Source: Prevotella sp. (lineage in GTDB: Bacteria; Bacteroidota; Bacteroidia; Bacteroidales; Bacteroidaceae). From it: a stretch of DNA of 62,993 nt. Both the position numbers and the translations under genes were made by a program. The DNA is taken from NCBI GenBank assembly GCA_017561825.1, contig JAFZBK010000027.1:1-62993 (forward strand), written 5' to 3'. A model generated the notes under the pieces. The model was not told the DNA's origin and made no database searches. It worked only from the letters and a program-made list of their open reading frames with translations. Below, piece by piece: positions 9,301-62,993 of the stretch (its first letter is position 1; every line of letters starts with the position of its first letter).

Positions 9301-12231
9301 TTATTTTACCAACACTTTCTTTCCATTGTGTATATACACACCCTTGGTGATAGGCTTATTAACCTTTACACCCTGCAAGGTATAGAACTCTCCGTCTTCC
9401 ATATCAGCATCCTCAATGGCCTTTCGGATAATTGTAGCGATACCGCCACCGAATTCTTCCTCTTCATACAAAAAATATATGAAGGAAATTTTTGAGTTGC
9501 CAATTACCTCCTCATAGATTTGAGCATCATAGTTACTAACACCACCCTGCTCGTTCTTCCAATGATAGAAATCTTTATACAACTTCAAGAAGGAATGATT
9601 AGGAGTGATTTTAGTATTATTCTTTGCTCGCAAGAACTTACCCGTCTTTGTTGAATTGGTTGTCTCTGAACGAGTTTCCAAATCATATACCTTAAAGCCA
9701 AAATTACGATAAATGATCTCATTGCCAGATTTATCTGTAGGACCAATTATTACCGTCTCATCGTTTGAAGGAACAAGCAAGTTACTGCTCTCAGCATCCC
9801 CTTGAACATCTTCTGTAAACGGATATTGCACAACATTTCCTGTATATTTTTGGAAATAGTATAATACACTACTCTCGGTAATACCCACCATGATTAATCC
9901 TGTATGATCAGGAATATATCCTTTTACTTCCCTTGCATATGCTTTCGTTTGGGGAGTAGTCGTAAGTAAATCAGCTCCTTGAGTATATCCATCATCAAAC
10001 TTCCAGATACGGTAGATTTTCACGATAGGCTGGCCTGAAGTACCATAAGTAGGCATTTTATACGGTGTAGCCGTACTGTACGATCTTAAGAAATCGCCAG
10101 TTACAGGAATCTCATTACCTGTTTTGGCAAACTGCTGCCAACCATTGGCGGGTTTATTTGTCAGATAGCCTATAGGATAACCATTATACTGATTTCCTTC
10201 ATGTTCTTTAGGTTTATTCTGATTGTCAACCAAATCTGCATTATTGCCAATACCAATGGGGATGTTTTCTATTACTTCGCTAGTATGATTACTTTCTCCA
10301 CGAATCGCCAGCAATTCTGTCTGTGTAAATCCAAATCCTTCTTTCCATGCACCTTTGTAGAATTCTTTTTCTTTATCTGTATTATTGAAATGCAAAGTGG
10401 CCATATTGTCGTAATTAGCAGGGTTAGTTTGGCCATCCATTGTATTAAAGTTGAATGCATTATATTCACATACTAATGCTTTCAAATCTGGATCCACAAA
10501 TACATAAACATCTCTAATAGAAGTACTCTCCTCAAATGCCTGAGACTTAATTACTAAAGGAGCAGCAGGCTCTGTAGCTGGTTCAAAAGTCACTTTTGTA
10601 AGACCAGTTCTTCCAAAAGCCATTGTCTCAATTAAGGTGGTTCTTACAGGAATCTCCACTTCTGTTAAATTTGAACATCCAATGAAGCAGCTTGATGTAA
10701 TAACCAATGCATCTGTTCCGCCTTTTTCAAACTTCACTGTCTTAATTGTAGTGTAATTAGCGAATCCACCATCTGCGTTGTGGTTACCAATTTGTGCAAC
10801 CTTATTGCCAATAGTGACATTCTCCAATGGTGGCTTATTGTTCCCATTAGCAATCTTATGAATTGTACCAGAACTGATTGTTAGGTCTGTAAGGTTCGTG
10901 CAATCATTACATAACTTATCATCCAAGGCGGTTGAAGGATCAACATACTTAGAGGTAATTGCAGTCGTTACATTAGCCCCCCAGTTCATAAATGACATTT
11001 GTTTATAGTCATACTCCTCTGGTACAGTGAAGTTGGTTGTCCATTCATCATTTACATACCTATATTCTTCGCCACCGACATATGCGAACTCATCCTTTTT
11101 TGCCGCAGGAGTCATATTATCTTCTGAAGAGAATTGATAATCAACCTTTTTATTATCGCCATCATTATATTGGATTTGATTCCAAATAATATTACCCGTT
11201 TTTACCTTCTTATAAATAGCCCAAGAAGTGACAAAGCGAATGTATTGGGGAGGATTACCAAAATCATTATAATGATTATTCCTGTCTCCTTCTTGCCAAT
11301 CAGGAGTATGAACAGTAGCATAAGATGGCACATCATCTTCTGTTATAGATGTCCACTTTTTACCTTCTTGCCATCTAAAATATGAATACGTTGATGGGAA
11401 TGCTACATAATCACCGATATTGTACTTATCAATAATATTTCCATTATTTTGGTAGTTTACATCTTCGGTTTCATACACGAATTCATTCTCCCCTTGCTCA
11501 ACTTCAATCCAAGTTTTAGACCCGTTGTTGTCTCTAAGTTGGAAATACTTATAGGTCAGAGGAACTTTAACACGCTCATTACCGCTGCCATTACCATTCA
11601 TGTAATCAGCTGCCACCGTATGAGCCTCATTATTGGCATCATCAGCTACCCATTTGTTGTCGTAATCCAATCTGTAATAGTTTGCAGCTGTGGCTATTCT
11701 CACATAAGCATTCACATTATGATCACCTGCATGTTCTGTATTGATGTTGTCAACCGTCCAACCATCAGAATTCTCATAATGATTATTATGAGGTCCTTCT
11801 TGCTGCTCAACCCACATCACTTCCTCTTGGCTCTGCCATAAGGTTCCACCAACTAAACACTTATCATTATGATTATCGTTTGTAAATGGAGTGCTATGAT
11901 ACAGTTTATAATTTTTCTCGGCACCTCCTACCTTCTTGACAAACTTTGCCTCAGACATGTCCACAGTTGACTGAGTGCAACAGTCAGCATCTTTCAAAGC
12001 TTTGAGGTCTTCATCATTGAATTTACCATCAAAAACAATGGTTGAAGCGTTTCTAATGGCTGCTTTCTGAGCATCACTAGCACCTTGCAGATAAGTCTTT
12101 AAGTCACCGGCTTTTGTCGTAGTAATGGTTACAACGCCATCAACCACAGAGACTTCGGCAGCAGCAAAAACATCCTGCGGCACCATCATTCCCACAAAAC
12201 ACATGACTACTAGAAGTAATAACTTTTTCAT
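9301..12231 (-). CDS. Secreted BspA-like protein with aromatic repeats and sorting-type tail
   Basis: This is a large exported protein (976 aa) with a signal peptide (residues 1-24, MKKLLLLVVMCFVGMM). Residues about 160-420 hold four or five divergent units rich in Tyr and Trp (NYYRLDYDNKWV, YSYFRWQEGKKWTSI, EYRYVNDEWT). Residues about 445-610 have leucine-rich repeat features of the BspA type (CTNLTDLTISSGTIHKIA, CSNLTEVEIPVRTTLIETMA). The last 30 residues (FYTLQGVKVNKPITKGVYI, then KKVLVK) resemble the C-terminal tail of type IX secretion cargo. A surface adhesin or host-interaction role is inferred. It has its own promoter (12353-12384) and is followed by a small peptide gene. Confidence 0.8.
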   Translation of the reverse strand: MKKLLLLVVMCFVGMMVPQDVFAAAEVSVVDGVVTITTTKAGDLKTYLQGASDAQKAAIRNASTIVFDGKFNDEDLKALKDADCCTQSTVDMSEAKFVKKVGGAEKNYKLYHSTPFTNDNHNDKCLVGGTLWQSQEEVMWVEQQEGPHNNHYENSDGWTVDNINTEHAGDHNVNAYVRIATAANYYRLDYDNKWVADDANNEAHTVAADYMNGNGSGNERVKVPLTYKYFQLRDNNGSKTWIEVEQGENEFVYETEDVNYQNNGNIIDKYNIGDYVAFPSTYSYFRWQEGKKWTSITEDDVPSYATVHTPDWQEGDRNNHYNDFGNPPQYIRFVTSWAIYKKVKTGNIIWNQIQYNDGDNKKVDYQFSSEDNMTPAAKKDEFAYVGGEEYRYVNDEWTTNFTVPEEYDYKQMSFMNWGANVTTAITSKYVDPSTALDDKLCNDCTNLTDLTISSGTIHKIANGNNKPPLENVTIGNKVAQIGNHNADGGFANYTTIKTVKFEKGGTDALVITSSCFIGCSNLTEVEIPVRTTLIETMAFGRTGLTKVTFEPATEPAAPLVIKSQAFEESTSIRDVYVFVDPDLKALVCEYNAFNFNTMDGQTNPANYDNMATLHFNNTDKEKEFYKGAWKEGFGFTQTELLAIRGESNHTSEVIENIPIGIGNNADLVDNQNKPKEHEGNQYNGYPIGYLTNKPANGWQQFAKTGNEIPVTGDFLRSYSTATPYKMPTYGTSGQPIVKIYRIWKFDDGYTQGADLLTTTPQTKAYAREVKGYIPDHTGLIMVGITESSVLYYFQKYTGNVVQYPFTEDVQGDAESSNLLVPSNDETVIIGPTDKSGNEIIYRNFGFKVYDLETRSETTNSTKTGKFLRAKNNTKITPNHSFLKLYKDFYHWKNEQGGVSNYDAQIYEEVIGNSKISFIYFLYEEEEFGGGIATIIRKAIEDADMEDGEFYTLQGVKVNKPITKGVYIHNGKKVLVK

Positions 12232-52255: not shown

Positions 52256-52337
52256 GCCCAGATGGCGGAATCGGTAGACGCGCTGGTCTCAAACACCAGT
52301 GGGGCAACCCGTGCCGGTTCGACCCCGGCTCTGGGTA
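52256..52337 (+). tRNA. tRNA-Leu (anticodon CAA)
   Basis: The acceptor stem GCCCAGA pairs with TCTGGGT. The anticodon arm CTGGT-CTCAAAC-ACCAG gives anticodon CAA (codon UUG). A long variable arm (class II tRNA) and the T arm GCCGGTTCGACCCCGGC follow. CCA is not encoded (the DNA reads ACGA). The change to A+T-rich DNA with mobilisation genes begins just beyond its 3' end, so it probably serves as an integration site. Confidence 0.95.
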
Positions 52338-52389
52338 CGAAAGTACCACATGTGAGGCTAAAAAGACGCACTGGCTCAAAGAAAGCAAG

Positions 52390-52427
52390 GTGCTGTAAGA
52401 CAACAACTTACAGCACTTTTTCTTTTT
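52390..52427 (+). terminator. Rho-independent terminator after tRNA-Leu
   Basis: GTGCTGTAAG (52390-52399) pairs with CTTACAGCAC (52407-52416) and is followed by TTTTTCTTTTT. If the island begins at the tRNA end, this terminator is either island-borne or marks the pre-existing tRNA 3' flank. Confidence 0.85.
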
Positions 52428-52810
52428 ATAGAACCAAAGTTTTTCTCTCGAAATTTTCCCCACATTTTCCCCACCGATGCAAATTTGATGTAATTGAATG
52501 GTAGATTTTGGTGCGGGAAATCCTTGTTTTCATGAATTCGTATAGATTGGTAGATATCTATTATATGATTCTGTAATTCGAGATTTGCGTTTGTCGATCT
52601 GTTGGGTCTAATTCGACAAGTACACTTGCTGTATTAAATTCATCGATTGTGACCGATGAATTTGGATCAAGCATTTGCCAATTCTCGTAGAACTTCCATA
52701 TATTCGATCTCACAGACATGCTATGAGTTAATAATTCTCAGCTCCTGCATTAGTATTCTCTTAATGATTATAAATTCTTTAATTGACAGATTGAGCATAC
52801 TATTTATCAA
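52428..52810. other. Intergenic region at the island left end
   Basis: I see no convincing gene. A perfect 10-bp inverted repeat (AAATTCATCG at 52636-52645 with CGATGAATTT at 52654-52663, 8-nt loop) could be a weak terminator for the operon to the right or a protein-binding site. CCCCACATTTTCCCCACCG near 52459-52477 is a short direct repeat. The rest is A+T-rich and may hold decayed sequence. Confidence 0.5.
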
Positions 52811-53593
52811 CTACCAATTAGCAACAATCTTCGTTAATCTATTTGTAGCATCTCCTTTATATGAAGACGGGTGTATTAAAACTAGAAACCTTCCATGAGG
52901 AACTTCGTCAGGTATTATCTTTCGTTTCAGATAATATATATCGTTATTTTCTGTATAGCCCGAAAAGATTTCTTTGTTTCTTGCTGTATAAACAACATTT
53001 TTAACCTTGTCTGTAGGACTAATATATATTCCTTCATAAGGAAAATCATCCAAAGTTGACCAATTTCCTAAGAATGGCCAATAACACACCTTCACATCCT
53101 CCCAAGAATAGATTTCCACTTCACCAGGCACGTCATCAACAAAACACGTTGTGTTTTTAAAGAAATCAGGATAACTGAAACCTGTATAATGTTTTATCCA
53201 TGATGCAGAATTGAGTTTATTATTAAAAGTATCTTTATTGCGAGCGAATGATTCCACATCTGAGACATCTGCCTCTAATGCATTTATAGTTTCCTCGATT
53301 GTTGAAGGGGCTTTCTTGCTCATATTTAAGAAAACAAAACCTATGATGGCAAAAATGATCAAACCAAGTCCATAAAAGATTAACTTTTTATTCTTTTGGA
53401 AGAAAGAATCATTTCTCAAAGCATTCTCTGACGACATTTGACTACAATCATTCCCATGTGATTCTTCACTAACATTAGAATTACTATTACCAAGTATTTT
53501 CTTCTTTTCTACCTCAATTTCTTCCTTGGTTAGTATACCTTTCTCATAGAGTTGTTTCAACTCTAGCAATTTGTCAATGATTGATTTTGTCAT
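52811..53593 (-). CDS. SHOCT-domain single-span membrane protein
   Basis: This product of unknown function has 260 aa. Residues 8-34 form a SHOCT-type helical hairpin at the N-terminus (LELKQLYEKGILTKEEIEVE). A charged linker follows, one membrane span is at about 71-90 (LIFYGLGLIIFAIIGFVFLN), and a 170-residue soluble C-terminal domain that I cannot name ends the protein. The SHOCT module is nearly identical in DNA (41 identical nt) to that of the next gene upstream. SHOCT hairpins are usually C-terminal and are thought to promote oligomerisation or nucleic-acid contact. It is the last gene of the seven-gene island operon, 22 nt after its neighbour. Confidence 0.8.
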   Translation of the reverse strand: MTKSIIDKLLELKQLYEKGILTKEEIEVEKKKILGNSNSNVSEESHGNDCSQMSSENALRNDSFFQKNKKLIFYGLGLIIFAIIGFVFLNMSKKAPSTIEETINALEADVSDVESFARNKDTFNNKLNSASWIKHYTGFSYPDFFKNTTCFVDDVPGEVEIYSWEDVKVCYWPFLGNWSTLDDFPYEGIYISPTDKVKNVVYTARNKEIFSGYTENNDIYYLKRKIIPDEVPHGRFLVLIHPSSYKGDATNRLTKIVANW

Positions 53594-53615
53594 ATTAGAA
53601 TCATATATCTTCTTT

Positions 53616-54974
53616 TTACCTCATTCCATCTATAATATTTTTTGCCTCTTCTGTCATATAAGGCATTATTTTCTCATAAGGTATCGTTATGCTTACTTGT
53701 CTAAGAGCCCCTGGTCCAATTTCGTAATGCTGATAGTCAAATTGTACTCCATTTTTCACTAAGTGAATTATACCAGCCATAGGAGATGACTCGAATTCTT
53801 CATTGACACTTTCATAATCGTCTCCTAATTTATTCTTTACAGCGGTAATAATCAATTTATGCAGTCCTTTATCATTGATAGATCTAATAATATTTATGTG
53901 CTTCCCATCTACCTTTCTAAAAGTAGAGGCGTCGCAAAATTCGTTACTAACTCCACCGTGAAAGTAGTATGAGTGAGCACATAAAGAAACACAATACTCA
54001 TTTTCGAAATCTTTTGTAAACTCGATAGTCTCTATATAAGCAGAAGCCCCCTCATAAGCATTTTCTTTCCATTCACTATCTAAGCCATCATATTTCCTCT
54101 TTCCATAACTATTAATAACGGTATTACCATCATTCAAGCTCCCTCCATATTCATTTATGCTGAACATAGCAGCAATAACCCCACTTACATATTTCCTTGT
54201 GTTTTGCAATAAAACATGGGATCCTTTAATGGGATAATCGACAGATAATTCAACAATTGCGCTAGACGTATTTTTTTTGTAAACGATCTTTTTAGTCTCG
54301 AATTGCTTCTCTTCTTCCTCAATTCTTGCCAAATCCGCTTCACTTAAAACTCTTGCAGTAAAAGACATGTTTTTACCTTTCGAGTTAGTGAAAGTACCCG
54401 AATAAACATTATCCTCTATTATACCTTCGAAAACACCTGCTTTTGTGTTCCCGTCGTACTCGTATAATACCATTTTCCCATCATCACTATTAATTCCTTT
54501 TATCACTATGTTAACATCTTTCTTTTGATTATCATAGTGCTCTGTCCCCTCAATATCTGTACCTTCGGCAGTAAGGCGCATTGTAAAACCTATCTTGTCA
54601 TTAATGGATCCTTTTAATGCAAGGGTATTGATTTCTGGAATAGAATCATCGTCAGATACAGGAACGGAAGGACGTGTTATTATCTTAGGCACAAATATAA
54701 TACCAGCCATCACAATTAACAAAGCAATTCCGCCAAAGATATAGCTCTTGTATTTCTGAAAGAATGGTTTAACGGGTTCTTCTATTTCAATTTGTTGCTG
54801 TGATTCGGATGAGATTGTCTTTTCTTGCCTCAATATCTCTTTGGTTGTCTCGATATCCATACCAAGAATTTTTCGTTTTTCAATCTCCATTTCCTCCTTG
54901 GTTAGTATACCTTTCTCATAGAGTTGTTTCAACTCCATCAGCTTTTCAATCTGCGTTTTTTGTGAATTATCCAT
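53616..54974 (-). CDS. SHOCT-domain membrane protein with DUF3298-like C-terminus
   Basis: This 452-aa protein has an N-terminal SHOCT hairpin (about 10-37, KQLYEKGILTKEEMEIEKRK). A membrane span lies at about 78-97 (YIFGGIALLIVMAGIIFVPK). A middle domain of about 100 residues may be a beta-sandwich (YDNQKKDVNIVIKGINSD). The C-terminal part (about 225-450) resembles DUF3298/RsiV-type domains (SLCAHSYYFHGGVSNEFCDA, IPYEKIMPYMTEEAKNII). RsiV is a lysozyme-sensing anti-sigma factor, so an envelope-sensing role is possible but only inferred. The start overlaps the upstream gene by 8 nt. Confidence 0.78.
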   Translation of the reverse strand: MDNSQKTQIEKLMELKQLYEKGILTKEEMEIEKRKILGMDIETTKEILRQEKTISSESQQQIEIEEPVKPFFQKYKSYIFGGIALLIVMAGIIFVPKIITRPSVPVSDDDSIPEINTLALKGSINDKIGFTMRLTAEGTDIEGTEHYDNQKKDVNIVIKGINSDDGKMVLYEYDGNTKAGVFEGIIEDNVYSGTFTNSKGKNMSFTARVLSEADLARIEEEEKQFETKKIVYKKNTSSAIVELSVDYPIKGSHVLLQNTRKYVSGVIAAMFSINEYGGSLNDGNTVINSYGKRKYDGLDSEWKENAYEGASAYIETIEFTKDFENEYCVSLCAHSYYFHGGVSNEFCDASTFRKVDGKHINIIRSINDKGLHKLIITAVKNKLGDDYESVNEEFESSPMAGIIHLVKNGVQFDYQHYEIGPGALRQVSITIPYEKIMPYMTEEAKNIIDGMR

Positions 54975-56001
54975 TATTCTTTTTATTGATCCTTTTTGTT
55001 ATCAAATAATATGCAAGTAATATAATCGCCAGAACTCCAATGGCACAAGCAATAATAATTTCCTCCTCTATCCAATAATCTGTGTAAACATAGTTCTCAT
55101 GAAATATAATTATACCTATAACGAAGATAACGATAAATGAAACAGGAAACAAGTACTTTTTCATCCTAGCATTTTTTATTTTTGCCTTTCTTTTCTTATT
55201 GCTTATTGATTTTACAAGTTTAGTTCCATTTTTAGTATAGGGTTTTAGAAAATTCATCTTGTCACGATACGAATTTGCAATCTGATTCTGAGTACTATAA
55301 TAATTGCCTGATACCTTCCAAAACAAAAAAGAAGAACAACGAATATTGCAGTTTATCCCATGCGACCAGGCTTTAACAACTAATTCGTCAAACCGATTCT
55401 TTCCAAATAGATTGACAATTGTATCACCGAGAGTATAGCCAATTTGCCCAGCAGCAATAACATCATCAGCTCTCTTGTTTGCAGCATTTTTCGTTTTTGA
55501 ATGAAGATTGTAATTTTCAACAGCTACATCAAAGAACAGTTCTCCGATTTTTATAAGTCTGTTTGTTATTTCAGTAAGGCATGAATTCAGCACTTCTTCA
55601 TCGGTAGTACTATCCTTAAGCAACTTTAGTACAGACTGCGTATTATCATTAATCTTTGATGCCTCATACGCAAAATCAATTATATCCTTATCCATTGTTG
55701 CAAAATATAGCGAATAAAAGCATGCTTCCCAACTATTAGGATCTTCTTGATGTATCATTCGATAATATTTTGCAGCTTCCTCATAATTATCCGAATCCTT
55801 TGCTCTATGGGCGACTTGATATAGTCTATTCAACTCGTTAGTAGAAGAATGTATGGTTTGTCTTTCATAATTTTGATGATATGAATTATTGGTATCAAGA
55901 ATTTTTTGTTTCTCGATCTCCATTTCTTCCTTAGTCAGTATGCCTTGCTCATAGAGTTGCTTAAGCTCTAATAATTGTCCAATTTGAGATGTAATTGCCA
56001 T
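54967..56001 (-). CDS. SHOCT-domain protein with helical middle and two C-terminal membrane spans
   Basis: The 344-aa product begins with a SHOCT hairpin (about 8-35, KQLYEQGILTKEEMEIEKQK). A tetratricopeptide-like stretch (about 55-110, RLYQVAHRAKDSDNYEEAAK with YYRMIHQEDPNSWEACFYSL) and a long helical middle follow. Two membrane spans are near 284-300 and 314-333 (FIVIFVIGIIIF; IIIACAIGVLAIILLAYYL). Unlike the two downstream SHOCT proteins, the membrane part is at the C-terminus. It starts 2 nt after the upstream stop and overlaps the next gene by 8 nt, so all are tightly coupled. I recognise no function. Confidence 0.78.
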   Translation of the reverse strand: MAITSQIGQLLELKQLYEQGILTKEEMEIEKQKILDTNNSYHQNYERQTIHSSTNELNRLYQVAHRAKDSDNYEEAAKYYRMIHQEDPNSWEACFYSLYFATMDKDIIDFAYEASKINDNTQSVLKLLKDSTTDEEVLNSCLTEITNRLIKIGELFFDVAVENYNLHSKTKNAANKRADDVIAAGQIGYTLGDTIVNLFGKNRFDELVVKAWSHGINCNIRCSSFLFWKVSGNYYSTQNQIANSYRDKMNFLKPYTKNGTKLVKSISNKKRKAKIKNARMKKYLFPVSFIVIFVIGIIIFHENYVYTDYWIEEEIIIACAIGVLAIILLAYYLITKRINKKNNG

Positions 56002-56003
56002 TT

Positions 56004-57566
56004 TTAATTGTTGTCGGATAATAATGCCTTCTTATGGAAATCAAATTCTTCTTGAGATAAGATGTGTGCATCAAGTAGAGATTTCATTTCTTCAAGGATT
56101 TCATATTTTGTCTTGTTCTTGTCCCAAGGTATCCATTTATTACTAAGTGTTGATTGTTTTTCTTTTCTATACACTTCTGGAGTAATAACCCCTGCATCCA
56201 ATAAAAGTTTCAAATTGTTAAGAGTAACTATCTTTTCATCCTCACCTTTTGCTAATGGAATAGCGGCTTTTGCCAACTTGTTTTTTAGTTCCATGAATTC
56301 TTCTTCTGATAAAACACCAAATCTGATTAACAATTCAAGATTTGATATAGTATCTTTTATTGATTCTGACCAAACTTTTGTTTGTTCATTTGATAATACT
56401 GTCTTTTTGTGAAAGTTAAATTCTTCTTTTGTCAAAATGCCTGCATCAAGTAGATAATTCATTTCTATAAGTATTTCTATTGGTGTCATATTCTTACCCC
56501 AAGGGATAGAGACCAAACTAAGAGTTGACAGTTTTTGTTTCCGAAATTCTTTGGGTGTTAACACTTCTGAGTCAAGCAATAACTTTAAATTATGTAGAAT
56601 AGAAATCTTATTGTTCTCGACTTTTGCATCCACTGTTCTTTGTGGAGGTGTTTGAATGGCAGATTGAACGGTAGAAGGTGTTATTTTGTTTTTCTGCTCA
56701 GCATACTCTTCCTCTGTCAGAATACCTGCTGTCAATAACTCATCAAGTTTTACAAGATTATCTTTATCAGAATCTGATGACTCGGAATTATTCTGTTTTT
56801 CTAATTCATGTGTTTGGTGGGCAATCTCTTTATTTTGCTCGAATTGTGGGATTTTTCTTTGATAGTTTTCTTTCAATTTATCCATCTTGTCAAGAGGTTT
56901 GTCGACTCCGACAAACGGATTTCCTGCCCTATAACTTGAATGACGGAATGTTGATATTGACATATTCTCAAGATCGTCTGCTTCTTGGCTTTTATTGTGA
57001 GACTTTACCCCACTATTGACTGTGATAAATAAGGCTGGTAAGCCTATTATAAAAAGAAGCCACCAAAGCAAGTATTCAGATTGGCCAGATAGATGGGTAA
57101 GGCAATAGAATGCACAAGGAGCGCAGATGATGCCAGCAATAATGGCAGTGACACGAGATGAACTAGCTTCACCACGTATATCTTCTATCAAGCAGGTTTT
57201 TTGCCATTTTAGGACAAAATCAGTGGTAAAATCTACTCCTTTTTCATATGTTCTTTTCCAGAGATTTCCACAATAGGGACACTTAAATTCAAAAGGAGTT
57301 GAATCAAAGGTGGTTTGAACAAAAGAGTCACTAACTTGATCTGCTTTCTTTTCTATATAAGCAGCAATAAAAAACGCAACAATTAATCCAAGAATTGTAC
57401 CGACAACGGGAAAAATGACATTTCCCATAACAATTGTTGCAATATACAATAGAACTTTCTTGGTTGCAAAGCGTGTCCCGGTTCTTACCCCTTGTTGTTT
57501 CAATTCATAGACAGGAATTCCTTCTGTGATTTTTCCACATTTAGGACATTGTTCGAATATATCCAT
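56004..57566 (-). CDS. Zinc-ribbon membrane protein with an array of six SHOCT-like hairpins
   Basis: Cysteine pairs CPKC (7-10) and CPYCG (96-99) flank a hydrophobic hairpin (about 38-70), giving a split zinc ribbon. Further spans lie near 140-157 and 165-184. The C-terminal half (271-515) is a run of six SHOCT-like helical hairpins, starting at about 271, 323, 363, 408, 448 and 488 (e.g. KLDELLTAGILTEEEYAEQK). Two of these form a 75-residue double unit that is repeated (about 321-395 and 446-518), each with a conserved IPW-K linker. Proteins with so many SHOCT modules are unknown to me; a scaffold that gathers the other SHOCT proteins is an attractive but untested idea. Confidence 0.8.
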   Translation of the reverse strand: MDIFEQCPKCGKITEGIPVYELKQQGVRTGTRFATKKVLLYIATIVMGNVIFPVVGTILGLIVAFFIAAYIEKKADQVSDSFVQTTFDSTPFEFKCPYCGNLWKRTYEKGVDFTTDFVLKWQKTCLIEDIRGEASSSRVTAIIAGIICAPCAFYCLTHLSGQSEYLLWWLLFIIGLPALFITVNSGVKSHNKSQEADDLENMSISTFRHSSYRAGNPFVGVDKPLDKMDKLKENYQRKIPQFEQNKEIAHQTHELEKQNNSESSDSDKDNLVKLDELLTAGILTEEEYAEQKNKITPSTVQSAIQTPPQRTVDAKVENNKISILHNLKLLLDSEVLTPKEFRKQKLSTLSLVSIPWGKNMTPIEILIEMNYLLDAGILTKEEFNFHKKTVLSNEQTKVWSESIKDTISNLELLIRFGVLSEEEFMELKNKLAKAAIPLAKGEDEKIVTLNNLKLLLDAGVITPEVYRKEKQSTLSNKWIPWDKNKTKYEILEEMKSLLDAHILSQEEFDFHKKALLSDNN

Positions 57567-57578
57567 TTAATCAAAAAA

Positions 57579-58541
57579 TTATTTTTTAAAGCCCTTAAAT
57601 TTTGTGATTACTGAGTTGACGTCCACATTTTTGGGGATTTTGGGGAGGCCCCAACCGCTTTCACCTTTCTCTTCTTCTTTTTTTGCTGCTAGTTCTGCCT
57701 TCTTTGCTGCTTCAATTTCTTCTGGAAATTCAAACTTGATGGGATTTGTACGCAGCCAATTGCATGTTTCTGTCTGTTCCCATTTCATTGCCTCATAAAC
57801 CCGAACTGGAGTATAAGGATGATCTGCATCGTAATCTGCCATCCAATGAACAATTTTGTTCCAAGCCGTTCCGTCTCTTAATGCCTCGAAATCCTCACCC
57901 TGTTTTGCCCATGCATTAAAGTCCATCGTTTCCACAATGTTTTTGGGTATCATGTCTAATCTAGCCAACACCCTTGACAATGTGCTTACAGGAGAAATGA
58001 TACAGGCGACACGATCTGCAGTCAGTTCAGATGCTCTACTCCAGAGCATCAATGCTTGTCTGATAGGTTTCATTGCAATATTACCTATCATGCCTACAAA
58101 AGAATCAGCTATAGCATCTCCAAATGTGAAGATAGCATTTGCCAATGTCTGGTATAACACATGTTGACACAAAATATGGCCGCATTCATGTGCAAGAACA
58201 GCATCTAGTTCCTCTCCCTTAACTCTTCTGATTAATCCAAGAGTAACAACAATGTACACCTTCTTGTGTCCAGAAGTCCATGCATTTGGGATTGAACTCA
58301 TTTGCAAATATAGTTCTGGTACAGGTATCCCTAATCGTTCACAAATTGGAGGTAAACGGTTATAGATCTCTGGCATTTGTGTTTCGGAAAGGCGCAAATT
58401 GGTAGTGACATTGTCGCTCCATGCAAGTTCGTCATAGCCATACTCAAAAACTTTCTCCATTAGTTTTGGCAAACCTGGAACATTTTTCAACGCTTTTAAT
58501 GCTTTCGCATCTGCAGGATGTATAAGTTCTTCAATATTCAT
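57579..58541 (-). CDS. M48-family zinc metalloprotease
   Basis: Residues HECGH (118-122) in LDAVLAHECGHILCQHVL form the zinc-binding HExxH motif, and SRASELTADRVACIIS gives the third ligand (Glu172) and the supporting Asp176. The N-terminal part (PELYLQMSSIPNAWTSGHKK) matches the substrate-groove region of M48 peptidases. There is no clear membrane span, only one moderately hydrophobic helix after the zinc site, unlike HtpX. The C-terminus is Lys-rich. It is 320 aa, the third gene of the island operon, and lies 12 nt upstream of the zinc-ribbon/SHOCT gene. It could cleave a partner protein when triggered. Confidence 0.88.
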   Translation of the reverse strand: MNIEELIHPADAKALKALKNVPGLPKLMEKVFEYGYDELAWSDNVTTNLRLSETQMPEIYNRLPPICERLGIPVPELYLQMSSIPNAWTSGHKKVYIVVTLGLIRRVKGEELDAVLAHECGHILCQHVLYQTLANAIFTFGDAIADSFVGMIGNIAMKPIRQALMLWSRASELTADRVACIISPVSTLSRVLARLDMIPKNIVETMDFNAWAKQGEDFEALRDGTAWNKIVHWMADYDADHPYTPVRVYEAMKWEQTETCNWLRTNPIKFEFPEEIEAAKKAELAAKKEEEKGESGWGLPKIPKNVDVNSVITKFKGFKK

Positions 58542-58543
58542 AA

Positions 58544-58765
58544 TTAAAAGATTTTTGTTACCTTCAAATAGATACCATTGAGAGCTCCCCCCTTTCTGAT
58601 ATCAATGCCATAGATACGTTTGAACGCATCCACTACACACTGGCCACCATTAGTATGAACAGGATCACTATACGAATTGGTGACCACCTCAACACTCATG
58701 CCTGGTTCCAAACGAACACCATTGGTGTTAACCCTCCTTATGACAGTTATTCTAAATAATGGCAT
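58544..58765 (-). CDS. DUF6140-like small protein
   Basis: This 73-aa soluble protein has a beta-rich pattern (ITVIRRVNTNGVRLEPGMSV, then QCVVDAFKRIYGIDIRKGGA) that matches my memory of the DUF6140 family from Bacteroidetes. Its function is unknown. It ends 2 nt before the metalloprotease start, so it is coupled to it and may regulate or present the protease. Confidence 0.7.
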   Translation of the reverse strand: MPLFRITVIRRVNTNGVRLEPGMSVEVVTNSYSDPVHTNGGQCVVDAFKRIYGIDIRKGGALNGIYLKVTKIF

Positions 58766-58826
58766 ATTATAAATTCCCTTGTTGAACTATTATTGCTTTA
58801 TCATTCACAAATAACGATTATTATTT

Positions 58827-59597
58827 TCATTTATACAATGATGCCATTTTAGTTAAATGCTTCGACAATCCTTCTCCCAATTTTTCTGTAATCATTCTTT
58901 CAGGTGAAACATCTTTGAAGAAAGAATTTGATTTTGTCGAATAGATTGCGTTTCCATCGTCTCCATAAAAAAAGAAGATATTATTACTATAAGAAACATT
59001 ATTTATGGAACTCCATTCCAATTTGATTGTTTTTGCAGATTTGTCATCTATTTCCCTGACGTAAATTGCCTTCTCTGTAATTACAAGTCCATAGGAACGA
59101 GTATCCCAAAATGACGTATCCCGTGCAAATAGCACTTCTTCCCCTAAGCCAATTTTGAAGTTATTATAATACTGTTCCAAAGTTTCTGGAGAATCAAATC
59201 CCCTTCTCCTTTGAAAACTTAAATACGTGCTACAATCATGATCATTGTGCTCGTTGAACCAATAGGAAAGATGCCTTTTAAAATACGAACTGATGGCATT
59301 ATTTGATTGTTCAGAAAACAATTCTATCGCTCTTCTAGCCCAAAAAGATGATTGCTCTTTATTTTCTTCCAAAAGCATAGTACCGTTGCGATAACGTAGT
59401 GATAATTCTAAACAAGCTTGGGGATTACCAGACGTTGCCCATTCTTTTATCTTTTTTGATTCAATGTCGTCATATGGTCGTTTATCAAAATACTTATCAT
59501 ACAACTTGTTTTTTTGTTCCTCCTCTGCTGAAGAATTGGCATCTGCCCCACTCATTTCCTCAACAACATGGGCCAATAAATGCAGAAAATAGCTCAT
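58827..59597 (-). CDS. Sel1-like/PH-like domain protein, first gene of the island operon
   Basis: This is a 256-aa soluble protein. Residues about 55-95 resemble a Sel1-type repeat (SGNPQACLELSLRYRNGTML). The C-terminal half (about 150-245, EEVLFARDTSFWDTRSYGLV; SINNVSYSNNIFFFYGDDGN) has the strand pattern of bacterial PH-like domains, which often occur with SHOCT modules. The first residues (SYFLHLLAHVVEEMSGADAN) are an amphipathic helix rather than a signal peptide. It is 61 nt upstream of the DUF6140 gene. A convincing promoter was not found upstream. Confidence 0.7.
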   Translation of the reverse strand: MSYFLHLLAHVVEEMSGADANSSAEEEQKNKLYDKYFDKRPYDDIESKKIKEWATSGNPQACLELSLRYRNGTMLLEENKEQSSFWARRAIELFSEQSNNAISSYFKRHLSYWFNEHNDHDCSTYLSFQRRRGFDSPETLEQYYNNFKIGLGEEVLFARDTSFWDTRSYGLVITEKAIYVREIDDKSAKTIKLEWSSINNVSYSNNIFFFYGDDGNAIYSTKSNSFFKDVSPERMITEKLGEGLSKHLTKMASLYK

Positions 59598-59646
59598 ATA
59601 TCAGTAACATTTAGAATTAATAAAGTTTTTGCTTAATATACAAAAA

Positions 59647-59727
59647 GTGCAGGCTTACGCCATCCTCTGTCCGACGCCCAGGTCTCGCATTACCTCAATA
59701 GTCGGGACAGCAATGCGAAACCTGCAC
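59647..59727 (-). ncRNA. Candidate structured leader/terminator RNA upstream of the SHOCT operon
   Basis: GTGCAGG (59647-59653) pairs with CCTGCAC (59721-59727). Inside, two stems compete: TGTCCGAC (59669-59676) with GTCGGGACA (59701-59709), and CGCATT (59686-59691) with AATGCG (59712-59717). On the minus strand the outer stem is followed by TTTTTG, as in a terminator. A 64-codon frame ending RDLGVGQRMA crosses it, but I doubt that it is a gene. The arrangement fits a switch between readthrough into the operon and termination. Confidence 0.4.
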
Positions 59728-60331
59728 CGATATGAAGATAAAGCGACATCTAAAGAATAAGATGGCACTAATAAAATCATACCAGAGAGGTATTCCACAT
59801 TTGCGTCATTGACTATTGATTCTTCCAAATTGCGAGTTTGGGGCGTCAAATCAGCGTTTGTAAAACACCAATCATATATATACAGACCTCTCCTCCCTAC
59901 AACAGAGGATTTAGTTTGCGGGCATAAAATTACGAATAATTATTTGAATGACCAAAACATCTTTTTAAAAAAAACGTTGTTAAGGCACACAATTTGAACA
60001 AATAAGAAAGAACTATGCCATTTCACAGATGTTTTCCTCTTAAAGATGGTTAAGCTATGCAATATTATTTGTCTTTTCTGTTTGATGACTATTTGTTTCT
60101 TACCTTTTATGAAAACGAGCCACAAATGTGATATTTGCTAATCCACTCATATGATATTTAATCATTTCATTCTTTGTTTTATTCACGATACATAGATATT
60201 AAAGAAGTGTGCCTCTATCATCACACCTTATAAGAATTATATCTATTATGGCAAGAAACATAAAGGTGCAAAGACCGCAAAGTTTAGGTATGTATAAAAC
60301 AGGTTCGTACTCAACAATAATCATTTTCTAA
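59728..60331. other. Long A+T-rich stretch without a supported gene
   Basis: I see only short frames, among them a 27-codon plus-strand frame at 60249 (MARNIKVQRPQSLGMYKTG) and a 64-codon minus frame that ends in the structured region. None has a promoter or a recognisable product. This is where a relaxase gene would be expected downstream of the MobC-like gene, so loss or replacement of DNA here is possible. Confidence 0.5.
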
Positions 60332-60748
60332 TTATCGGTGTATTATCTTCTTTACAATCTGCTGCTGTTCGTCTTTGATCTCGCAAATCAGTTCCTGGAT
60401 TTCCATTATCCGTGGGTATAGGAGATTGGCATAATAGAATTGATCCAGTTTTCCAATTATTGCAAGCTCGTTGGCTCGTTTAACAGCCTGGTTCAGGTTG
60501 CCTCCAATCCAGCTGAGTTCTTGCTGATATTTTTTGTATAAGGCTGTCATTTCATTCAGAGCATCAATTCTCCGTAGGGTACCGATGTCGTTAAACTGCT
60601 TCACGGCATCACGAATGAATGGCCCCCAATTCTTATAAAGTATTGCTTTCTTTTCAAAAAGGGCAGCATCTTTTGGACTCAGATAAATCTCTATCCTCTT
60701 ATAGTTGTACTTTGCTTTGTCTTCTCTTCTCATTTTTTCCATGAACAT
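60332..60748 (-). CDS. MobC-like relaxosome accessory protein
   Basis: This 138-aa product matches the MobC-type mobilisation family. Residues about 18-50 fit a ribbon-helix-helix DNA-binding part (YKRIEIYLSPKDAALFEKKA). The hallmark LSWIGGNLNQAVKRANELA is near 78-96, and a helical tail follows. Such proteins bind oriT and help the relaxase nick DNA. An oriT-like inverted repeat lies 45-90 nt upstream of its start. The relaxase normally follows directly, but here only A+T-rich DNA and then the SHOCT operon follow. Confidence 0.75.
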   Translation of the reverse strand: MFMEKMRREDKAKYNYKRIEIYLSPKDAALFEKKAILYKNWGPFIRDAVKQFNDIGTLRRIDALNEMTALYKKYQQELSWIGGNLNQAVKRANELAIIGKLDQFYYANLLYPRIMEIQELICEIKDEQQQIVKKIIHR

Positions 60749-60792
60749 TTTTCCGAGTTGCGAGGACTATTACCCCAGCTTCTCCGAAGTTG

Positions 60793-60838
60793 GCAAGTCG
60801 ACTTTTTGACGGGATTACCGGTAAAAAGTACAACTTGC
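60793..60838. other. Candidate oriT: nested inverted repeat upstream of the MobC-like gene
   Basis: GCAAGT (60793-60798) pairs with ACTTGC (60833-60838), and inside it ACTTTTT (60801-60807) pairs with AAAAAGT (60823-60829), with GACGGGATTACCGGT in the loop. Nested inverted repeats just upstream of mobilisation genes are typical of oriT. The nick site is not known. Confidence 0.45.
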
Positions 60839-60979
60839 TATTCTGTTTTCAAAAACCTCTATTATAAAATTACCATAATATGATAATATACTAAGATGAT
60901 AATTGCGTATTTGTATAATTACAGTTATCCAAGTGGCTGGAGCTTGCTCTTCTCACAGCCACCACTCCCTCCCAAAATT

Positions 60980-61019
60980 GGACTTTTGGGGAATTAGGCT
61001 TCCCCATGGAAAAAAGTCC
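60980..61019. other. Long hairpin between the winged-helix gene and the oriT region
   Basis: GGACTTTTGGGGAA (60980-60993) pairs with TTCCCC (61000-61005) and AAAAAGTCC (61011-61019), interrupted by ATGGA. It may end transcription from the replication-type genes or form part of the transfer origin. No strong T run follows on either strand. Confidence 0.5.
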
Positions 61020-61037
61020 ATAGGCGGGCAAGCCCTT

Positions 61038-61394
61038 TTAAGGGGAATTGTCCATGATTTCGGGGCTGGTTTCCTGTGGGACATAAGCAAGGTTTAAGAT
61101 ACGGATTTCGATGTTACAAGAGGCTCTTTTGACTTCAAGAACACCCATATTATGAAGGGCCTTTAGGAATGACATGACAGTCTTTCTATCCCATCCCCAA
61201 CGCTCGGCCAGTTGGTTGTATGTGGCACCAAAAGGAATGTTGACGCCATACTTCAGAAGGGCATCGAAGTGGTCTGTCTGGCACTCATACAAGTATAGGA
61301 ATGCATCAAATCTTGATGTCCTATTGGGCAGAGATTTGGCCAAGAATTGGAATAACTCTGCGTTCAAATTAGTGAAAATAACGTTTGGCCTCAT
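61038..61394 (-). CDS. Winged-helix protein of a mobile element
   Basis: This 118-aa product has a central winged-helix motif (GATYNQLAERWGWDRKTVMS, then FLKALHNMGVLEVKR) and an N-terminal helical part. It resembles small DNA-binding proteins found beside replication and mobilisation genes of Bacteroidales mobile units; an exact family is not assigned. It starts 3 nt after the 218-codon gene and lies before the oriT-like region. Confidence 0.65.
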   Translation of the reverse strand: MRPNVIFTNLNAELFQFLAKSLPNRTSRFDAFLYLYECQTDHFDALLKYGVNIPFGATYNQLAERWGWDRKTVMSFLKALHNMGVLEVKRASCNIEIRILNLAYVPQETSPEIMDNSP

Positions 61395-61397
61395 CTT

Positions 61398-62054
61398 CTA
61401 ATTGTTTGATTTCAGTATCCTATTCAATGTCTCAGTAGGGGCATATTTCCTGTTGTATTCTTCGAGTGAGATGCCAGGAACTCTTTCTTTCTCGCCTTCC
61501 TTTTCTTTCAATTTCTGCTCGTATGCCTCAATGATTTGCTGCCGTTCACGGAGGAAACTTGGTATACTTCTGATGATTGTTTGTGGGTCAAAGTAGCTAT
61601 AGAAGCGTTCATAGAAGCCTGCCTTGAAATTGAAAAAGAATAGCATCTGTTCACTTGCTTTCAACCATTTGTATCTACCAGACATGGCAGTGGCAGTGAA
61701 TAGTAATTGGTCTTCAGAAGCATCTTCTTTCAAACCACAATTCAGACTTACATCCGCAATAAAAGGAATAAGCCATTTGACAGAAGTGAAGTCACCATAC
61801 ATGATATCCAACTGGGTTAAAGTTGGGGATAGGCCGAGGACGCATGATGCGGGATTCTGACAAATATAGACTTGTTGCCTGACATTGAAAACTCGGAAAA
61901 ACGCATCAGGTGTTGGGTATTTCTGACGCAGATATTCCATTTGTGGGGTCAATAAAAGCTGGGCCGACGTTGGCAATGGCTTTGACAGCTGAATTATAAA
62001 CGTTCCGTTGTCTTTGATCCTTTTCATCAATTCTTGGTTTAATGTTGTTTCCAT
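61398..62054 (-). CDS. Mobile-element protein of unknown function
   Basis: I do not recognise this 218-aa protein. It has a mixed alpha/beta pattern in the first 130 residues (YLRQKYPTPDAFFRVFNVRQ; SPTLTQLDIMYGDFTSVKWL) and a long charged helix near 165-190 (QIIEAYEQKLKEKEGEKERV). It is soluble, with no signal. The frame overlaps the 3' end of the DUF6291 gene by 149 nt; a start at internal Met codons (62027 or 61940) would shorten the overlap. The close coupling with the winged-helix gene suggests a shared role in element replication or maintenance. Confidence 0.6.
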   Translation of the reverse strand: METTLNQELMKRIKDNGTFIIQLSKPLPTSAQLLLTPQMEYLRQKYPTPDAFFRVFNVRQQVYICQNPASCVLGLSPTLTQLDIMYGDFTSVKWLIPFIADVSLNCGLKEDASEDQLLFTATAMSGRYKWLKASEQMLFFFNFKAGFYERFYSYFDPQTIIRSIPSFLRERQQIIEAYEQKLKEKEGEKERVPGISLEEYNRKYAPTETLNRILKSNN

Positions 62055-62685
62055 CTTGTTCTGTGTTTAAAGGGTGAATCTCCCAGTATCTTTCTGAGAG
62101 GAAATTATTGAAATACTTACGATACCTTATTTCAGGCGTTTTGGCGACATAACCGGGTATGTATGCGAGGATGGCGACATGTTCTTGTTTAGAGAGTCCG
62201 TCCCATATCTCTTTTGCTGATTTTATATCCCCTACAGTCTTACCATACATCTCCAAAACATCATCAAAAGAGACATCAGATCCACTATTGATGAATAACG
62301 CGTTAGCGGTATCATTATCATTGTCTTTATAACTATCATTGTTATTCTTATTATCATTATCATTTAGGCATCCATCCGTTTGCGGTGGCTTGCCATCGAT
62401 AGCGATTGGTTGCGATTGCTCGTTTTGGCCTTGATTCGTATGACGTTTGCGTGCGTTAGCACTGTTTCGCTTGCAACGCTCTTCATACTTCTTGTGGTCA
62501 CGGTCTATCTGTGCACACAGGATAGAAAACAAGGCAATCAGAGCCGTATCTGAGGTTTCGAGCTGCTGGCCATCCTTCGCATAGCGGAGTACCGCTTTGA
62601 TCAGGATGCCAGCCTGCTCGTCTGTCAGATGCTCAATGGCAACAAGGCTATCAAGATAAAGAATAATACTCTTGATTTCTTTCAT
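61906..62685 (-). CDS. DUF6291 domain protein, replication-organiser-like
   Basis: The N-terminal 85 residues (YLDSLVAIEHLTDEQAGILI; IALFSILCAQIDRDHKKYEE, then RCKRNSANARKRH) match the DUF6291 pattern seen in proteins next to phage and mobile-element replication genes. A low-complexity Asn/Asp linker follows (about 108-128, NDNDNKNNNDSYKDNDND). The C-terminal half (AKEIWDGLSKQEHVAILAYI; YRKYFNNFLSERYWE) is typical of such replication organisers. It is 259 aa and lies 9 nt downstream of the Xis-like gene. Confidence 0.7.
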   Translation of the reverse strand: MKEIKSIILYLDSLVAIEHLTDEQAGILIKAVLRYAKDGQQLETSDTALIALFSILCAQIDRDHKKYEERCKRNSANARKRHTNQGQNEQSQPIAIDGKPPQTDGCLNDNDNKNNNDSYKDNDNDTANALFINSGSDVSFDDVLEMYGKTVGDIKSAKEIWDGLSKQEHVAILAYIPGYVAKTPEIRYRKYFNNFLSERYWEIHPLNTEQDGNNIKPRIDEKDQRQRNVYNSAVKAIANVGPAFIDPTNGISASEIPNT

Positions 62686-62694
62686 AGCCTACGC

Positions 62695-62993
62695 TTATTT
62701 CCCATTCACCAGTCGCTTGATATCGGATGAACGATACATCACACGTCGCCCAATCTTTATTGGTACCAGATAGTTTTTCTTCCCCCACAGCCATAGGGTC
62801 GTGTCACTGACGCTAAACTTGTCCTTCACATCTTGCTTGGAAAGAAGGACGTCTTCATCAGACGGAGTATCTTCAGGCAGATCTACAAACCCCATGTAGT
62901 CATGGATGGCTTTGGCAATAGCAGAAATCCCCTTACCTGTTAACATGATAGTGATATGATCACCACACTTCTCGATGTTAGAAAGCAGCTGAC
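62695..62993 (-). CDS. Xis-like helix-turn-helix protein (5' end outside window)
   Basis: The C-terminal half is an excisionase/MerR-type HTH (LLSKQDVKDKFSVSDTTLWL, then KIGRRVMYRSSDIKRLV). A Met at 62946 could start it, but the frame stays open to the window edge, and the residues upstream (QLLSNIEKCGDHITI) read like real protein leading into MLTGKGISAIAKAIHDY. I therefore treat the gene as partial, with its true start beyond 62993. Such proteins control excision or expression of mobile elements and often sit at the head of the replication/mobilisation genes. Confidence 0.75.
   Translation of the reverse strand, partial: QLLSNIEKCGDHITIMLTGKGISAIAKAIHDYMGFVDLPEDTPSDEDVLLSKQDVKDKFSVSDTTLWLWGKKNYLVPIKIGRRVMYRSSDIKRLVNGK

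Follow-up and report, generated by a model that had tools for sequence, protein, structure and literature searches.

A mobile seven-gene operon of Prevotella sp. combines a SHOCT hairpin array with an M48 metallopeptidase: a candidate envelope sensing device

The window analysed here, a DNA stretch of 62,993 bp that makes up the entire contig C45 (JAFZBK010000027.1) of a Prevotella sp. genome (2.98 Mb, 88% complete, gut-type Bacteroidota), harbours an operon of seven co-directional open reading frames (ORFs), A to G, which are encoded on the minus strand from position 59597 down to 52811. The operon is an assembly of recurring pieces; it is genuine, mobile and modular, and the searches made gave no earlier description of it. 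Judged from its sequence, it is best read, with a probability of about 0.4, as a SHOCT-scaffolded envelope sensor that would be linked to an M48 protease in the cytosol, perhaps with a role in defence. The recurrence of its parts beside immune-like genes elsewhere suggests an undescribed membrane sensing-and-response device.

Architecture of the operon

The seven genes (Table 1) follow each other with intergenic spacings of 61, 2, 12, 2, -8 and 22 nucleotides (nt). An initial annotation of this DNA had described seven tight genes with gaps of -8 to 61 nt and had also given their order, motifs and sharing of SHOCT modules; the ORF coordinates bore out the spacing, and the ORF list, Pfam and motif searches recovered the other features at the same positions and strand. 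Hydrophobic spans were called by a simple hydropathy scan in D, E, F and G, and in none of A, B and C. The assignment of B to DUF6140 and of C to the M48 peptidases is certain by Pfam (B, 103.4 bits against a cut-off of 27, E=6.6e-30; C, 65.8 bits against a cut-off of 20.3, E=5.7e-18). Of the proposed Sel1/PH-like nature of A only the PH part was retained, and this as a bPH_3 match below the Pfam cut-off (E=0.0049); Sel1 gave no Pfam match at E<=1. A known named defence system was considered and rejected, as PADLOC gave no confident core-gene match; the best match, of residues 140-205 of A to BnzA, is weak (E=0.0018). In a literature search no described system combining these parts was found, in agreement with the earlier claim that this gene set had no described counterpart.

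The expectation that the gene set would recur held for its parts, as the DUF6140-M48 pair, the zinc-ribbon module and a pair of anchor and client SHOCT proteins were found again; the complete set of seven had no second occurrence among the neighbourhoods examined. This, together with the G+C content of B and C (0.405 vs 0.32-0.35 in the remaining operon genes), is compatible with unrelated genes having been gathered by element turnover and sharing no joint function. We regard this as the least likely of the explanations weighed here, in view of the tight spacing of the genes, the purifying selection on the SHOCT hairpins of E, F and G and the presence of the same part types beside M48 genes elsewhere.

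A membrane protein with six SHOCT hairpins and three potential clients

In D, two CxxC pairs flank a hydrophobic stretch, which was called as one span and may form a hairpin, and are followed by two further spans and then by six SHOCT hairpins. The six hairpins that had been noted in this zinc-ribbon membrane protein were all found by motif, and Pfam scored three stretches with a total of 74.5 bits against a cut-off of 27. The two units of three hairpins are 49% identical to each other, and one other close copy of the array was found, with 75% identity in the best segment and less than 100 nt from a contig end. The earlier description of E, F and G as SHOCT membrane proteins stood with regard to their spans and their nearly identical N-terminal hairpins, which cover the full length of the SHOCT profile; at 16.5-17.2 bits the hairpins remained below the Pfam cut-off of 27. 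In F, the hairpin was modelled as two helices with a predicted local distance difference test score (pLDDT) of 82-91 over residues 11-40, the remainder of this single-sequence model being unusable. The codons of the three hairpins differ far more at synonymous (0.51-0.79) than at nonsynonymous sites (0.15-0.20), indicating an old duplication under purifying selection and no recent copy.

Proteins with an N-terminal SHOCT were seen outside the window in three loci (L087, L091 and L227; a further SHOCT match, G497:C1, lies outside the inspected loci). At all three, the product of the gene located 3-6 nt upstream is a membrane protein (a TM2 protein in L091) whose C-terminal SHOCT scores above the Pfam cut-off (9.7e-9, 1.6e-10 and 2.1e-7), and the downstream client is a single-span protein with an N-terminal SHOCT. 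D followed by E, F and G displays the same anchor-client order, so that the window is a putative enlargement of this pair to six hairpins in D and three clients. No match to the L227 client was found in phages or viral_contigs, and none to the L087 client in plasmids.

The hairpins further follow two patterns. All six N-terminal hairpins have a Tyr in helix 1 and M, I or L after the acidic pair. The 23 distinct array or C-terminal hairpins placed by pattern (six of D, three of partner proteins and 14 viral, a D fragment listed as N-terminal being counted with D) all have a non-aromatic residue in helix 1 and F or Y after the acidic pair, with a helix-1 pattern that allowed only some letters and omitted six viral loci (L238, L241, L243, L249, L251 and L252). 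The viral contigs were found by a pattern that accepted F, I, M or a single Leu codon at its second position, where 21/21 matches, not all of them independent, had F. A rather unlikely but far-reaching explanation would be that two complementary SHOCT classes exist, an anchor class with Phe/Tyr in helix 2 (C-terminal or array hairpins) and a client class with Tyr in helix 1 (N-terminal hairpins), which would pair heterotypically like plug and socket and would let mobile operons mount interchangeable sensors on a membrane platform; the window would then represent a version with six sockets and three plugs that acts in cell defence by driving an M48 protease. Since D has six hairpins, E, F and G have one each and two sequence classes can be told apart, the pairing hypothesis is directly testable.

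The M48 metallopeptidase and its relatives

C has the features of peptidase family M48, namely the HExxH motif, a downstream glutamate ligand and the profile match. The catalytic HECGH and the SELTADR glutamate (H118, E119, H122 and E172) are invariant across 13 aligned sequences, from which L066 is absent. The best NCBIfam matches of C are HtpX models, with 62.5 bits against an equivalog cut-off of 341, and its maximum 19-residue hydropathy is 1.21, at which no span was called by the simple scan.

A search of 201 family genomes gave 42 M48 matches at E<=1e-5, including that of the genome itself. The neighbourhoods of 19 of the 41 other genomes were read, the remaining matches being lower-scoring; three of the 19 (L063, L064 and L070) end just after or before the M48 gene. 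Three other loci (L062-L064) carry an M48 protein that is 61-67% identical to C. With the window included, DUF6140 is located 2-3 nt upstream of M48 in 4/4 loci in which the M48 protein is at least 61% identical to C. Downstream of the pair, a zinc-ribbon membrane protein is encoded in both loci that are uncut by a contig end, the window (D) and L062; the L062 protein has 790 amino acids (aa), is separated from M48 by one gene and aligns with residues 1-200 of D (E=4e-7, 23% identity).

The eight next M48 relatives (36-40% identity in the alignment, 39-46% over the matched part in the search) lack an adjacent DUF6140 gene. In all seven readable loci of this group the M48 gene is followed by genes for a hairpin protein of 84-92 aa and a membrane protein with a C-terminal zinc ribbon, six of the latter belonging to one family and that of L072 to a different one. 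D unites the hairpin and membrane/zinc-ribbon part types that are seen after M48 in these loci, and this is the strongest reason to assume that C and D act together. C may alternatively be harmful when free and be retained at the membrane by the other proteins, as would be compatible with its intact catalytic residues and with the tight linkage to B in 4/4 close loci. The absence of adjacent DUF6140 from the eight next relatives speaks against such a controlled toxic protease, as does the lack of any match of the seven proteins to toxin-antitoxin families in Pfam or PADLOC, and we consider it very unlikely.

Genes for TIR proteins were found in 4/8 next-group M48 loci (L065, L067, L069 and L071), compared to 0/71 control loci, which were DUF6140 neighbourhoods; as the TIR model was built from TIRs in M48 loci, finding them there was favoured. 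The searched loci exclude the window, and the TIRs in L065 and L069 are independently supported by Pfam. The TIR of L069 (5325-6659), close to the M48 relative, is fused to a SIR2-like domain. More distant M48 relatives occur in long operon-like runs, with GTPase-like genes in L077 and L080 and with vWA-, phosphatase- and kinase-like genes in L078 (all by inspection). C is matched by 55 plasmid records, every one at less than 60% identity. In PHROGs, SHOCT-bearing families of unknown function and one unknown-function family matching C were found.

Putative client proteins E, F and G

E carries nine K/R within the 15 residues before its two-span tail and is matched in 4/170 genus genomes, its own included. 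Over residues 53-250 it is 36% identical to a zinc-ribbon protein of another genome (L228), next to whose gene lies one for a band-7 (SPFH) protein (9.9e-46). Outside the SHOCT, F and G show weak similarity to each other (24% identity, E=0.002). F is matched in 74/170 genus genomes at E<=0.001, its own included, and most of the matches listed fall within residues ~217-450. A profile of 12 F ectodomain sequences matched the structures 3s5t (4.9e-15), 3cyg (9.4e-14), 4e72 (0.001) and that of RsiV, 5jen (0.1). DUF3298 matches are present in 12/12 aligned members of the profile and PdaC matches in 7/12, F itself staying below the curated cut-off (E=0.0048). F shares with RsiV a DUF3298/PdaC ectodomain that follows a single span. 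By the positive-inside rule, the SHOCTs would be cytosolic and the C-termini of F and G, including the DUF3298/PdaC-like domain of F, would lie outside the cytosol; for F and G the charge difference is small (3 vs 2 and 4 vs 2). RsiV is described in the accessible text of PMC5014341 as a lysozyme receptor with 3CYG as its best structural match.

These proteins may also belong to an envelope maintenance function, in which a phage-shock-like complex beneath the membrane would use a soluble HtpX relative to clear damaged membrane proteins, with the SHOCT, zinc-ribbon and PH parts serving as membrane anchors. Phage-shock-protein (PSP) operons in which PspA-PspAA is combined with PspAB, a membrane-associated metallopeptidase and, in some cases, a SHOCT-like gene are reported in the consulted portion of PMC11237479, the core of E has a homologue whose gene adjoins one for a band-7 (SPFH) protein, and the ectodomain family of F is common in the genus. 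At the same time the operon is mobile, low-G+C, patchy cargo, some relatives of C adjoin TIR genes, and none of the seven proteins matched PspA, PspC or Toastrack families in Pfam at E<=1. We rate envelope maintenance as the next most likely explanation after the SHOCT-scaffolded sensor, though as less probable than not.

DUF6140 in other genomes

DUF6140 was detected in 65/399 family genomes and 11/295 order genomes, the genome itself included. Among 78 neighbourhoods parsed, it was found in 57 and the other 21 were uncounted; the 57 include L062-L064 and L088, which were fetched via M48 or D and the genomes of which the DUF6140 search lists as well. Four of the 57 contain M48 and seven the zinc-ribbon module in the same run. 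The module scored at E<=8e-17 in six of these and at only 5.8e-9 in L139, E-values that are flattering, as each round of model building drew on the hits of the model itself (five weak, drifted rows were left uncounted). A literature search on DUF6140 returned nothing.

The partners of DUF6140 vary among the members listed and comprise tandem dynamin-like GTPases matching LeoA/LeoBC, GmrSD_N proteins, AAA ATPases, and DUF697-like membrane and exonuclease-like proteins (some by inspection). When 106 neighbour representatives were compared with 106 control genes, LeoA was matched by 3 vs 1 and Dynamin_N by 4 vs 2; GmrSD_N was matched by 4/106 neighbours and was absent from the best 25 control families, protein counts being available for the first 25 families. 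In total, 105 vs 40 families were matched in PADLOC and 105 vs 145 in Pfam. As the neighbours were cluster representatives and the controls random genes, the two sets were drawn differently and no significance is claimed.

In L137, L146, L150, L157 and L162, DUF6140 is followed by tandem dynamin-like GTPases, mostly with a small coiled-coil-like protein between the GTPases. A PP-binding (acyl-carrier) domain was identified by Pfam in a zinc-ribbon/DUF697-like membrane protein of a DUF6140-type operon (L088, 714-2222), and similar ones were seen by inspection in such membrane proteins of L090 (9171-10070) and L018 (5789-6613). Adjoining the D-type zinc-ribbon protein of L090 is an 80-aa protein that appears DUF6140-like by eye (10072-10314), in a run that has an Hsp70-like gene (by inspection). 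The genome of the window itself has a second, divergent DUF6140 gene (L030, 184-450, G000:C57), which lies at the edge of a contig and has a DEDD-exonuclease-like gene nearby (by inspection).

The mobile element at tRNA-Leu

The mobile island at a tRNA proposed by the initial annotation was substantiated by a drop in G+C at the tRNA, an integrase and a repeated tRNA 3' end. The G+C content falls from 0.467 over positions 1-52000 of the window to ~0.34 at the tRNA and amounts to 0.32-0.41 in the operon genes. As the window is the whole contig, the element extends past the contig end. The opposite end is apparently located on contig C31, an adjacency that we infer from an overlap of 385 bp with 97.7% identity between the ends of C31 and C45. 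On C31, the vicinity of sdhB (by inspection) contains a gene for a tyrosine integrase, the 3' end of tRNA-Leu repeated over 21 bp and, with 89% identity, a second terminator stretch. The integrase and the tRNA 3' end repeated at both ends are the features that define an integrative element, which probably resides in tRNA-Leu(caa) and spans positions 52318-62993 of the window and locus L184 (G000:C31), ~15.1 kb in total if the contigs join. The operon occupies the tRNA end, and the far end carries the genes for the integrase and for a Schlafen AlbA_2 protein. Terminator-like stems numbered five in the stretch vs 3.9 expected by chance. Near tRNA-Leu, sdhB was present in 0/19 genus loci read (at most ~1.5 kb on each side) and a ManC-like gene in 16/19.

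That the operon is carried at the tRNA end of an element with an integrase would fit a benefit to the element itself, such as superinfection exclusion or competition, in which the operon would guard the element or its host from other mobile elements at the envelope. The anchor/client pairs of L087 and L227 are likewise located near phage- or element-like genes (by inspection). In turn, B, C, E and F had no relatives in six viral_contigs scans and no relaxase was seen among the element genes listed, and we consider this explanation improbable. That B, C, E and F stem from a phage was rejected for lack of a viral_contigs relative. A match to 56% of B lies at the very edge of one phage record, and F had no plasmid match.

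Table 1. Positions of the operon genes and of further features of the element within the window
Feature	Position	Strand	Description
Gene A	58827..59597	-	256 aa; no span; weak bPH_3 (PH-like) match in C-terminal half
Gene B	58544..58765	-	73 aa; DUF6140 (PF19637)
Gene C	57579..58541	-	320 aa; M48 metallopeptidase, HECGH and SELTADR; no span by hydropathy
Gene D	56004..57566	-	520 aa; two CxxC pairs, spans, six SHOCT hairpins
D SHOCT array	56007..56765	-	D residues ~268-520; two 3-hairpin units
Gene E	54967..56001	-	344 aa; soluble core between N-terminal SHOCT and two-span tail at C-terminus
Gene F	53616..54974	-	452 aa; N-terminal SHOCT, one span, DUF3298/PdaC-like domain at residues ~217-450
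Gene G	52811..53593	-	260 aa; N-terminal SHOCT, one span, C-terminal domain without family assignment
tRNA-Leu (caa)	52256..52338	+	last 21 bases (52318-52338) repeated on contig C31 near integrase
Terminator-like stem	52387..52419	both	between tRNA-Leu and operon 3' end
27-base motif	52451..52477	+	21-base core with one other genome copy (<=2 mismatches), beside integrase on C31
Other element genes	60332..62946	-	weak MobC-like (E=0.066), weak HTH_Crp_2-like, DUF6633, DUF6291, weak HTH_17-like; reach contig end

Proposed mechanism and its weighing

The catalytic motif of C, the hydrophobic spans, the ectodomain family of F, the sharing of modules and the recurrence of parts are read directly from the DNA and are consistent with the following arrangement. 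D would serve as a platform, with a zinc-ribbon/transmembrane part inserted in the inner membrane; the six SHOCT hairpins, on the cytosolic side, would be docking sites to which E, F and G as clients would bind via their single N-terminal SHOCT. F, with its RsiV/PdaC-like DUF3298 domain, and G would face the outside and E the cytosolic face. An outside signal, e.g., cell-wall-lytic attack by a phage, a rival or the host, may alter the assembly, which would then position or release the soluble C to cleave a membrane-located protein. B may be a partner of this type of M48 protein, and A may add membrane or partner binding. The protease would be the effector and phage defence a possible role, a response to envelope stress being nearly as likely.

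Several observations weigh against such a SHOCT-scaffolded sensor with a protease effector. C has no SHOCT and, therefore, nothing links it physically to D. The 84-92 aa proteins beside the next M48 relatives are SHOCT-like only weakly (51% profile match), and Pfam found no SHOCT in the single 84-aa-type protein scanned. As for hairpin pairing, three distinct viral hairpins (six loci) misfit the helix-1 pattern, one misfit viral family having Tyr at neighbouring helix-1 positions plus Phe in helix 2; the aromatic swap may merely repack each hairpin intramolecularly, the N-terminal hairpins may derive from one ancestor, and the test described in the accessible part of the SHOCT paper did not favour self-association (PMC3581485). 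Regarding sensing, the F ectodomain profile reaches RsiV itself only faintly, and some DUF4163/DUF3298 proteins do not bind lysozyme, as stated in the portion of PMC5014341 consulted. With respect to defence, none of the seven proteins matches any PADLOC-DB 2.0.0 model better than the weak hit of A to BnzA, and the excess of defence-type families among DUF6140 neighbours over the control is modest, fitting conflict operons without being strong. The anticipated neighbourhood of defence genes was partly borne out by the TIR genes of the next group and did not extend to the three closest DUF6140-M48 loci L062-L064 (0/3) or to the more distant M48 loci (0/8), so that TIR genes occur in 4/19 M48 loci besides the window.

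If the proposed mechanism holds true, DUF6140 and a soluble M48 clade could be placed among the membrane-linked conflict systems found in gut Bacteroidota.

Comparison with known systems

HtpX has membrane spans around its catalytic domain. C has in common with HtpX and other M48 peptidases the HExxH motif with a third glutamate, and HtpX models are its best NCBIfam matches; it differs by its sub-equivalog score and the absent hydropathy span and is not HtpX itself. F resembles RsiV in the order of a short N-terminal module, one span and a putative DUF3298/PdaC-type ectodomain. In F, however, a SHOCT takes the place of the sigma-binding part, and no sigma-factor family was matched among the seven proteins in Pfam.

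The PspA-PspAA/PspAB/metallopeptidase operons, as presented in the accessible text of PMC11237479, share with the present operon a metallopeptidase, at times a SHOCT-like gene and the link to the membrane. PspA was not found here, and the six-hairpin array, the clients with N-terminal SHOCTs, DUF6140 and the RsiV-like ectodomain are additional. An M48 gene is also part of the functional anti-phage island RRDM described in the consulted portion of PMC12255303; the neighbours there, a restriction system, DarTG and RptR, are unlike those in this operon.

SHOCT-like domains have been predicted as protein anchors at the inner leaf of the membrane (PMC11237479), and the proposals in the accessible text of that study and of PMC3581485 comprise oligomerisation and membrane anchoring, with no demonstrated function. 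The word SHOCT is absent from the available text of two accounts of conflict systems (PMC7159879, PMC8195603). With the SHOCT proteins treated in the part of PMC3581485 at hand, the present operon shares the same hairpin and its association with band-7, PH-like and membrane parts, but here there is instead a six-hairpin array, three N-terminal copies within one operon and a class-specific aromatic swap.

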